Below are positions 5,011 to 6,422 of a stretch of DNA of 33,757 bases, piece by piece. The translations under genes were made by a program, and so were the position numbers. Positions within the stretch are counted from its first letter, which is position 1; the number at the start of each line of letters is the position of its first letter. The notes below the pieces were generated by a model. The model ran no database searches. It saw nothing but the letters and a program-made list of their open reading frames with translations, and had not been told where the DNA came from. Source of the stretch: Anaerolineales bacterium (GTDB taxonomy: Bacteria > Chloroflexota > Anaerolineae > 4572-78 > NAK82); NCBI GenBank assembly GCA_020343875.1, contig CP070811.1, positions 4,562,348-4,596,104 of the forward strand, read 5' to 3'.

Positions 5011-5352
5011 ATGACGGAAGAGATTATTGACAGCCCAGTTCATGTGAGCGACGAGAGTTTTGAGGAGACCGTACTCAAGTCATCTGTGCCGGTCATCGTC
5101 GATTTTTGGGCGCCCTGGTGTGGGCCATGTCACATGGTGGCACCTATCCTGGATGAGATTGCCAAGGAATACGCAGGCCAGTTGATCGTAGCCAAAGTCA
5201 ATACCGATGAGAATCCGGCATGGGCCAACCGCTACGCCGTGCGTGGCATCCCAACCATGTTGTTCGTCAAAGGTGGAGAGGAAATCGACCGGCAGGTGGG
5301 CGCTGTACCCAAGCAGTTTATCGCCAACAAGTTAGCTCCTATTCTCTCATGA
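5011..5352 (+). CDS. trxA: Thioredoxin
   Basis: 113 residues, the normal thioredoxin length. The active site is W36-C-G-P-C40, P45 is the conserved helix proline, and the cis-proline is P81 in 'RGIPTMLF'. There is no signal peptide, so it acts in the cytoplasm as a general protein disulfide reductase fed by thioredoxin reductase. The ribosome binding site AGGAGAGG (4999-5006) lies 4 nt before ATG 5011. It is the first gene of the operon, and its stop overlaps the start of the next gene as ATGA (5349-5352). The operator in its leader suggests induction when the downstream repressor is released. Whether this is the cell's main thioredoxin cannot be told from the window. Confidence 0.95.
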   Translation: MTEEIIDSPVHVSDESFEETVLKSSVPVIVDFWAPWCGPCHMVAPILDEIAKEYAGQLIVAKVNTDENPAWANRYAVRGIPTMLFVKGGEEIDRQVGAVPKQFIANKLAPILS

Positions 5353-5780
5353 TCGAGGTATCTAGCTGGATAAAGGCCAACTGGCTCTTGCTTATGTTCT
5401 TGGCCTTGGTAGCCAGCGCCTTTATCCTGTTGCGCAGCAAGCCCAGCAATGTCGCCTCTTTCGATGAGTTAAATGGGGTGTTGGCTGCTGGCCAGCCGAC
5501 AGTGGTTGAGTTCTATTCTAACTTGTGAAGTACGTGCCTGGTGGCGAAGCCTATCGTGGATAGGCTGGAACGGAAGCTGGATGGCAGGGCCGATGTGGTA
5601 CGGCTTGACGTAATGAGTCAAGTAGGACGACAAGCTGCAGGTCATTTTGGTGTGCGTGCTGTGCCTACGCTGCTTGTAGTAAATGGAGAGGGACAGGTCG
5701 CCCTCACTCAAGTCGGTATTTTCCGACCAGGCGATGTTCAAGCCCAGGTAGACAAACTTATCTTGACTGAGGGGAGGTAG
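5349..5780 (+). CDS. Candidate selenocysteine thioredoxin-like protein, membrane-anchored (in-frame TGA)
   Basis: Read through the TGA at 5526-5528, the gene codes for 143 residues. A membrane helix (about 12-28) is followed by a thioredoxin fold. The segment 'VVEFYSNL' is followed by TGA at codon 60, then S-T-C63 and P68. The TGA takes the place of the first active-site cysteine (C32 in E. coli thioredoxin), giving UxxC. P68 matches the conserved helix proline and P106 in 'AVPTLLVV' the cis-proline. The 83 codons after the TGA are intact and family-like. A hairpin at 5548-5566 sits where a bacterial SECIS belongs. The N-terminus is coupled to trxA by an ATGA overlap. TGA serves as an ordinary stop in neighbouring genes, so general recoding is unlikely. 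The alternative is a nonsense mutation or base-call error (TGC/TGT to TGA). No selA/B/C/D lies in the window. Confidence 0.75.
5548..5566 (+). promoter_or_regulatory. Candidate bacterial SECIS hairpin
   Basis: AGCCTATC (5548-5555) and GATAGGCT (5559-5566) form a perfect 8-bp stem around the loop GTG (5556-5558). The loop begins 27 nt after the TGA at 5526-5528; bacterial SECIS apical loops usually lie about 16-37 nt after the UGA and carry a G at the first or second loop position, as here. No bulged U is obvious in the stem. Function is inferred from position and shape only. Confidence 0.6.
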
Positions 5781-5794
5781 CAAGACATTAGATT

Positions 5795-6004
5795 ATGCCT
5801 ATTTATGAATATGTCTGCCAAGAGTGTGGTGAAAGATACGAAAAGTTTGTTCGATCTAGCCTAGCCAAGGTTGAACTTAAGTGCCCTAAATGCGGGAGTA
5901 CTCAGGCTACGAAGGCTTTTTCTGTGTTTGGTGTGCAGGGTGGCGGTAGTCAATCCTTTCAGACCGCGGCCAGTAGCGCCGCAGCCAGCGGCCCCATAGG
6001 TTGA
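5795..6004 (+). CDS. FmdB-family zinc-ribbon protein
   Basis: 69 residues opening with MPIYEYVC, the signature of the FmdB/CxxC_CxxC_SSSS regulatory-type zinc ribbon. The four metal ligands are C8, C11, C30 and C33 (C-x2-C and C-P-K-C). The tail is rich in Gly, Ser and Ala, as usual for the family. The exact function of these small proteins is not established. It lies 14 nt downstream of the Sec-thioredoxin frame; a GGGGAGG stretch at 5771-5777 is rather far (17 nt) from the ATG. Its place between two thioredoxins and a CstR-like repressor suggests a role linked to thiol or sulfur chemistry, but this is inference. Confidence 0.88.
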   Translation: MPIYEYVCQECGERYEKFVRSSLAKVELKCPKCGSTQATKAFSVFGVQGGGSQSFQTAASSAAASGPIG

Positions 6005-6146: not shown

Positions 6147-6422
6147 ATGACAACCTTATCTGCGATTACTCGTGACCAGTTAATCAGGCGGCTGCGACGC
6201 ATCGAAGGGCAAGCACGTGGCGTACGTCGGATGATCGAAGAGGACCGTGAGTGCCAGGACATTCTTACGCAACTAGCGGCCATCCGAGGTGCAGCTCATC
6301 AAGTCTCGGTTATGGTTGTCAAGGAATATGCCCTAAACTGTTTGAGTAGCCCTGAGGAGTACAGCTCTTCAGATGAGGCTATTACCAAGATGGTGCATGC
6401 CTTGACGCAACTGCCTCACTGA
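6147..6422 (+). CDS. CsoR/CstR-family (DUF156) metal- or persulfide-sensing repressor
   Basis: 91 residues, full length for the family. The first helix carries the family signature 'RRLRRIEGQARGVRRMIEEDREC'. Positions line up with M. tuberculosis CsoR without gaps: C36 and C65 are kept, but the copper ligand H61 is replaced by Y61. Copper CsoR proteins need C-H-C; the persulfide sensor CstR keeps the two cysteines and lacks the histidine. This protein therefore looks CstR-like, forming a disulfide or polysulfide bridge that releases DNA. It ends the thioredoxin operon, and two matching operators (4964-4980, 6044-6061) lie upstream. An in-frame stop at 6141-6143 fixes the start at or after ATG 6147; the AGGAGG at 6125-6130 is unusually distant (16 nt). 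Confidence 0.9.
   Translation: MTTLSAITRDQLIRRLRRIEGQARGVRRMIEEDRECQDILTQLAAIRGAAHQVSVMVVKEYALNCLSSPEEYSSSDEAITKMVHALTQLPH

Follow-up and report, generated by a model that had tools for sequence, protein, structure and literature searches.

A predicted selenocysteine-containing, membrane-anchored thioredoxin-fold protein and its relatives in Chloroflexota

The in-frame UGA at positions 5526–5528 of the DNA analysed here, a stretch of 33,757 nucleotides from an Anaerolineales genome (hereafter the window), is very probably read as selenocysteine (Sec) by way of a predicted SECIS-type hairpin, which would give a 143-residue thioredoxin-fold protein with a predicted N-terminal membrane helix. 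Because the codon stands at the active site, recurs in 49 relatives and is followed by the hairpin, it is likely read as Sec. A selenoprotein had already been proposed in an earlier note made from this sequence, and its proposal is strongly supported by the presence of UGA in 50 sequences and by a hairpin that covaries in the Sec forms and is lost in seven of the nine forms with Cys.

Gene and genomic context

The frame (Table 1) starts with ATG at 5349, ends with TAG at 5778–5780 and contains a sole in-frame TGA, codon 60, after which 83 more codons precede the TAG, the same number that the earlier note had counted. Its start shares 4 nt (ATGA, 5349–5352) with the end of trxA, whose stop is TGA, and at 22 of the 50 Sec-form loci a TrxA match precedes the gene on the same strand. 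The FmdB-family gene is likely in one operon with the selenoprotein gene, and the CsoR/RcnR-type gene is a possible operon member or regulator; a CsoR-family match was encountered downstream on the same strand at 13 of the 50 Sec-form loci. By eye, the first and last metal-site positions of this repressor are Cys, and Tyr stands where copper sensors have His; the protein may sense a signal other than copper. TGA is the ordinary stop codon of the amidase, trxA, FmdB and CsoR genes of the window. A scan of the window with Rfam returned no family at its gathering score.

Table 1. Features of the selenoprotein locus (positions in the window)
Feature	Position	Strand	Description
trxA, soluble thioredoxin with CGPC	5011..5352	+	TIGR01068 122.9 bits (cut-off 96.8); PF00085
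Selenoprotein gene (predicted)	5349..5780	+	143-residue predicted membrane-anchored thioredoxin-like protein, Sec at residue 60
Predicted transmembrane helix (signal anchor), residues 12–28	5382..5432	+	AlphaFold2 helix; hydrophobic segment in 49 sequences examined
In-frame UGA, putative Sec codon (residue 60)	5526..5528	+	First active-site Cys position
Cys63 codon, second UxxC residue, putative resolving Cys	5535..5537	+	Invariant in 21-sequence alignment; aligns with second Cys of TrxA
Predicted bacterial SECIS-type hairpin	5548..5566	+	8-bp stem AGCCUAUC/GAUAGGCU, loop GUG 5556–5558
cis-Pro codon, P106	5664..5666	+	Invariant column; aligned with TrxA
FmdB-family zinc ribbon gene	5795..6004	+	TIGR02605 56.9 bits, PF09723; 14 nt downstream of the selenoprotein gene
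CsoR/RcnR-type metal-sensitive repressor family gene	6147..6422	+	PF02583 87.7 bits

Conservation of the UGA codon

A BLASTP comparison with the TrxA encoded upstream aligned residues 60 and 63 with the two Cys of CGPC, in that order, and P106 with the Pro of the motif IPT. P68 is found at +8 from residue 60, as in E. coli Trx. The earlier note had placed the TGA at the first active-site cysteine, with C63, P68 and P106 following in the same frame, and each of these points is confirmed.

Among the distinct loci scoring at least 114 bits, TGA is found at codon 60 in 50 distinct sequences (the window and 49 relatives) and a Cys codon, TGC or TGT, in nine relatives; these were the only codons at this position in the loci of that score that were read, TAA and TAG being found in none. 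The DNA thus displays UGA in 50 sequences, far more than chance would give, where nine homologues have Cys, the pattern used to recognize bacterial selenoproteins, and the Cys homologues that the earlier note had suggested searching for do exist. In the 50 Sec forms the surroundings of the UGA conform to the motif [FLVIW][FY][STN]NxUxxC. The frame after the TGA runs without frameshift in the aligned members, with dN/dS values of 0.03–0.18 in nine sequence pairs, which are only rough since synonymous sites are partly saturated; the earlier note's statement that the downstream part does not decay is in line with these values. On a tree of 59 rows, built from few columns and with many open forks, the state at codon 60 requires at least four changes between Sec and Cys.

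Lower-scoring loci lie outside this set of 50 and nine, for example one with TGA at a contig edge (L041) and one cut before the codon (L040), and 27 lower-scoring or later-found loci were examined separately. Wider relatives (L043, L110, L117 and L120–L123, and L114, L124 and L125) have TGA at the same codon within the motifs QSP[YF]UIxC or YSDYUxAC and keep five or all six of the hairpin pairs described below, so the selenoprotein group exceeds the core set. Some matches with two TGA codons suggested a UxxU site, a reading that was rejected: of those read, L110 and L117 have one active-site U and a TGA as gene end, and the matched stretch of L120–L122 shows one U.

The predicted SECIS-type hairpin

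The hairpin beyond the UGA, a feature absent from the earlier note, as is its covariation, is predicted to be a SECIS-type element that directs Sec insertion. It folds with −9.8 kcal/mol, and its loop lies 27 nt beyond the UGA. The rules for bacterial SECIS elements, as given in a 2026 inventory, comprise a loop of 3–9 nt, a stem of 4–16 bp, a spacing of 16–37 nt, an MFE of at most −7.5 and a G in loop positions 1–2, often followed by G or U (PMC13188914); the window hairpin agrees with all of them. Taken alone, the region folds unexceptionally (z −1.35, 20 of 200 shuffles as good) and, given this weak single-sequence value, the case for the hairpin rests on covariation.

When the six inner pairs are scored across the 50 Sec forms, 96.7% of 300 cells are paired, compared with 88.8% (sd 0.7) in shuffles; changes on both sides of a pair occur in 41 cells versus 15.3, and the covariation score is 0.334 versus 0.168. 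None of 500 shuffles matched the Sec forms on pairing, both-sided changed cells and covariation score. Sliding one arm of the hairpin lowered pairing to only 28.7–55.7%. The number of pairs with a both-sided change is two, a value reached by 355 of the 500 shuffles and so not above chance, and RNAalifold draws just four of the six pairs. Pair 28–36 is GC in 25 sequences, AU in 23, GU in one and another combination in one (n = 50). Its 5' base opens the codon that follows Pro68 (for Ile, Val or Ala), and its 3' base is the last, synonymous position of an Asp codon, A going with GAT and G with GAC, a link that has no reason at the protein level. Pair 27–37, which links the last position of the Pro codon to the first position of a codon for Gly, Arg or Ser, is CG in 30 sequences, UA in 17, UG in two and GC in one (n = 50). 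All these counts treat related sequences as separate; independent pair changes number 2 and 1 on well-supported branches, too few for a sign test there, and 8 and 9 on all branches.

None of the 50 Sec forms departs from G31 and U32 in the loop; 40 of them keep six of six pairs and 10 five of six, and 48 reach −7.5 kcal/mol or better (columns 22–42). The nine Cys forms are paired in 46.3% of cells, compared with 44.2% in shuffles; seven of them keep at most three pairs, and the two that keep five (L086 and L104) come from genomes (G275 and G185) that still have SelA and tRNA-Sec. Of the 27 more distant loci, 20 have TGA and keep five or six of the six pairs, four have Cys and keep one to three, and three are without the motif. 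When a continuous stem was searched for freely in these 20 TGA loci, −7.5 kcal/mol was reached in only eight, and nothing better than −1.6 was obtained in seven. The Rfam model SECIS_1 (RF00031) had no match in the window's own genome and was silent in controls too, so that it is uninformative.

Selenocysteine machinery

The genome to which the window belongs (5.35 Mb, 85.6% complete, with runs of N) possesses selA, selD and a tRNA-Sec gene (selC): the tRNA-Sec scores 67.5 bits and has the anticodon TCA, SelA scores 545.7 bits and SelD 371.9 bits, the latter with an in-frame TGA at its active site (CAGUASK). SelD (L017) is thus itself a predicted selenoprotein, with a predicted hairpin of loop GUU after the UGA. 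For SelB, the first approximately 43 residues are found before a run of N, and a profile search at E 1e-30 returned nothing from this genome; one candidate (L009) was set aside, as it reads IF-2-like by eye. The search for Sec genes proposed in the earlier note therefore succeeded for tRNA-Sec, SelA and SelD and recovered just the N-terminal end of SelB. In the search of relatives, which covered 26 genomes (own genome included), 17 have a SelB above the curated cut-off, and in four of these the match extends over nearly the whole model. Five genomes of the same family (G001, G002, G004–G006) have SelB frames of 639–675 amino acids that match the first 346–373 model positions.

In a sample of 298 genomes from the class, 250 gave a SelA match (above the cut-off in 246) and 225 a tRNA-Sec, with filters that may miss weak matches. 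Among the 47 genomes with a Sec form, 45 have SelA, 37 have tRNA-Sec and 46 have one or both; the count of 47 includes one genome (G067) on the basis of "one TGA" in the match, the codon itself being unread. The genome with a Sec form, yet with neither SelA nor tRNA-Sec found (G219), is 77% complete. SelA or tRNA-Sec occurs in three of the eight genomes with a Cys form, a difference from 46 of 47 with a Fisher p of 9e-5 when kinship is ignored. Four of the five machinery-free Cys-form genomes (G191, G232, G241 and G268) are from one family and therefore do not represent five separate events. The Cys forms of this family, f50 (L089, L088, L081 and L083, in the same order), are consistent with a switch from Sec to Cys together with loss of the Sec trait.

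Distribution and annotation

A search of 61 genomes (own genome and 60 relatives) produced 19 further matches in 18 genomes with E ≤1.7e-26, each with exactly one TGA. In the class sample of 298 genomes, a TGA-bearing member of at least 114 bits occurs in 47 and a stop-free member in eight. Four genomes of the same family (G003–G006) gave no match at E 1e-15, despite having SelA and tRNA-Sec. Of 400 genomes of the phylum that were searched, 36 had a match at E 1e-22; these 36, of which 20 lie outside the class, include distant forms and forms without TGA. Four genomes from outside the class (G311, G315, G373 and G410) have matches of 119–163 bits with one TGA each. The gene is thus patchily spread in Chloroflexota, even inside its own family.

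The family is missed by gene annotation, many of its relatives being listed as half proteins. A profile search of a protein database found 248 proteins and, among the 120 listed, 51 are full-length and 69 short (76–83 amino acids). With two more from another search, the short proteins number 71, and 64 of these start at codon 65, two residues before K67 and right after the UGA. At least four of the listed short proteins are named "hypothetical protein" (three Anaerolineae records and one Chloroflexi). Among the matches listed, the full-length relatives have Cys at residue 60 in 49 of 51 cases, many database Cys forms having the motif FYSNxCSICL in common, and Trp in two of 51. The Trp at the Sec position of these two proteins (P0009 and P0030) probably comes from gene calling with a table in which UGA encodes Trp.

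Fold, topology and proposed mechanism

The window protein belongs to the thioredoxin fold by its match to PF00085 (39.4 bits, gathering cut-off 23.5). An AlphaFold2 model made from 21 sequences with residue 60 as Cys (mean pLDDT 95.3, pTM 0.85) displays a thioredoxin fold preceded by an N-terminal helix at residues 12–28; nearly all of the 50 Foldseek matches listed are thioredoxins or thioredoxin fusions, and the best PDB neighbours are thioredoxins. By the positive-inside rule, the cytoplasmic flank of a membrane helix is the positively charged one. In 49 of the 50 sequences, those for which a start codon, picked by script, was obtained, there are 101 Lys and Arg before the helix and 65 in the 15 residues after it, and 32 of the 49 carry a net positive charge ahead of the helix, 43 a net negative one behind it. 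Together with the rule, this bias predicts that the thioredoxin domain lies outside the cytoplasm. One N-terminal helix is predicted; the charges favour an inside N-terminus in the family, and the window protein itself has neutral flanks on either side of the helix.

Taken together, the sequence features suggest that the product is likely an outward-facing, membrane-tethered disulfide reductase. In the mechanism that we propose, SelB with GTP and Sec-tRNA would bind the hairpin with its GUG loop and deliver Sec at the UGA. In the folded protein, Sec60 would attack and Cys63 would resolve; such an attacking and resolving pair is established thioredoxin chemistry. With less certainty, the short N-terminus would remain inside and the thioredoxin domain outside, where the selenoprotein might reduce disulfides or peroxides of envelope proteins. 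An outside domain could contact cytosolic TrxA only through a relay in the membrane, and electrons might then pass, again less certainly, from TrxA to a CcdA-type membrane carrier and on to the selenoprotein.

A CcdA-like frame was seen by eye in the cytochrome c maturation locus of the same genome (L139). A search of this genome for CcdA with Pfam DsbD_TM gave no match over the cut-off; a weak match with an internal TGA was discarded, as it looks like reading beyond the end of the open frame. By eye, the CcdA-like frame, on the minus strand, has the TM2..GWTPCVGP part first and the SFLSPCVLPLVPIYLGYLTG block at its C-terminal end, a block that is normally TM1. The frame looks circularly permuted, or else misassembled.

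Alternative explanations

The UGA could be a true stop, leaving a membrane stub of 59 residues and a separate half protein of 76–83 residues made from a start near codon 65. The short database proteins would fit such a split, the start of 64 of 71 at codon 65 being the gene finders' choice, but both halves would lack the UxxC active site, no locus read at 114 bits or more has TAA or TAG in place of TGA, TGC or TGT, the frame with Cys is one full-length protein, and the covarying pairs would be left without a role. We consider this explanation very improbable. Decoding of the UGA as Trp or Cys, through another code or a suppressor tRNA, is slightly less probable still. It would account for the Trp of the two database proteins mentioned above, but four neighbouring genes of the window end in UGA, a tRNA-Sec with anticodon TCA is present, relatives have Cys and not Trp, and the SECIS-type pairs track the UGA forms and are lost in seven of nine Cys forms. 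Gene decay, or a TGA that is an error of sequencing or assembly, would be conceivable in an assembly that is 85.6% complete with runs of N; against this, the same TGA recurs in 50 distinct sequences, and downstream of it the aligned members are free of frameshifts, with dN/dS at 0.03–0.18 in nine pairs. Conservation refutes both decay and the sequencing slip that the earlier note had named as a possible refutation, and the chance of either is negligible.

A further alternative, compatible with the reading as Sec, concerns the side of the membrane: the thioredoxin domain could be cytoplasmic, at the inner membrane face, and partner TrxA directly. The trxA gene immediately precedes the selenoprotein gene and overlaps it by 4 nt, TrxA is found upstream at 22 of 50 Sec-form loci, and the flanking charges of the window protein are neutral. 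The charges of the family nevertheless point the other way, with a net positive flank ahead of the helix in 32 of 49 sequences, a net negative one behind it in 43, and 101 versus 65 Lys and Arg, so that we regard a cytoplasmic domain as unlikely, although far less so than the three explanations above. The same pattern runs counter to the earlier note, which had the Sec domain facing the thioredoxin encoded upstream, in that it predicts the domain outside the cytoplasm.

Significance

The reading as an outward, membrane-tethered selenium thioredoxin can be extended, tentatively and with some doubt on our part, to a family that is hidden from annotation and widespread in Chloroflexota: it might act as a terminal reductase of envelope disulfides (or peroxides), coupled through a relay to cytosolic TrxA, and might help the Sec trait to persist in most Anaerolineae genomes. 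The patchy occurrence of the gene in its own family and the weaker hairpin of distant members slightly lower the likelihood of this envelope-reductase reading. Few selenoproteins have been described in this phylum, and the sequences support one further group. The GU loop never varies and most Cys forms have lost the covarying hairpin, which makes these sequences a natural data set for SelB recognition in the phylum, and the close Cys forms allow a direct test of the benefit of Sec in a membrane-tethered reductase.

Comparison with known selenoproteins and thioredoxins

Proteins such as ResA, TlpA and StoA, and CcmG/DsbE, have one N-terminal anchor and an outward thioredoxin domain. Under the proposed mechanism, the window protein would resemble them in its anchor, its outward domain and its working mode, and would differ in that Sec replaces Cys. 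The NCBIfam models of ResA/TlpA/StoA and CcmG/DsbE had no match to the window protein at E 1e-5, and the DsbE and StoA models each match one of 21 members. No NCBIfam model reaches its cut-off on the window protein; the general thioredoxin model matches 21 of 21 members at E 1e-5. For TrxA proper (TIGR01068), the window protein scores 47.8 bits, below the curated cut-off of 96.8.

The use of Sec has been described in Anaerolineales for formate dehydrogenase (PMC4959059), and for Chloroflexi a 2006 survey gives three selenoproteins, which fall into three families (PMC1794560). The inventory of 2026 counts 119 selenoprotein families and subfamilies, and the words "Chloroflexi" and "Chloroflexota" are absent from its main text (PMC13188914). 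Its Table 1 includes Trx (PF00085, UxxC; WP_010956703.1) as an experimentally verified selenoprotein (PMC13188914). As described there, this seleno-Trx is like the window protein in Pfam family, predicted fold, UxxC motif and the position of Sec at the first active-site Cys, and unlike it in that, for the window protein, a membrane helix is predicted at the N-terminus and the motif is SNxUxxC rather than WCGPC. The same source lists a thiol:disulfide interchange selenoprotein (PF13098, UxxC; WP_011366075.1), whose representative, again going by its description, is likewise a predicted selenoprotein with a UxxC thioredoxin fold (PMC13188914). PF13098 scores 18.2 bits on the window protein, under the cut-off of 27, although many database relatives are listed with it. 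The inventory also names three Sec proteins that contain thioredoxin-like or DsbD-like parts, namely SaoT (NF040730), the HUIPC-motif protein (NF047660) and TsoB (NF045694), the first two having UxxC in common with the window protein (PMC13188914). NF040730 and NF047660 had no match to the window protein at E 0.01, and TsoB gave one weak match among 21 members at E 1e-5.

By the inventory's rule of domain plus motif, the window protein would be filed beside Trx (PMC13188914). The earlier note had called the selenoprotein probably new: this does not hold for its kind, as UxxC thioredoxin selenoproteins are known (PMC13188914). The group itself is new within the literature searched, a body with few subscription journals and no preprints, in which no prior description of the SNxUxxC group was found. 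As judged from its sequence, with the predicted anchor, the SNxUxxC motif, a score below the TrxA cut-off and relatives of its own, it is a distinct group inside the known kind of UxxC thioredoxin-fold selenoproteins.
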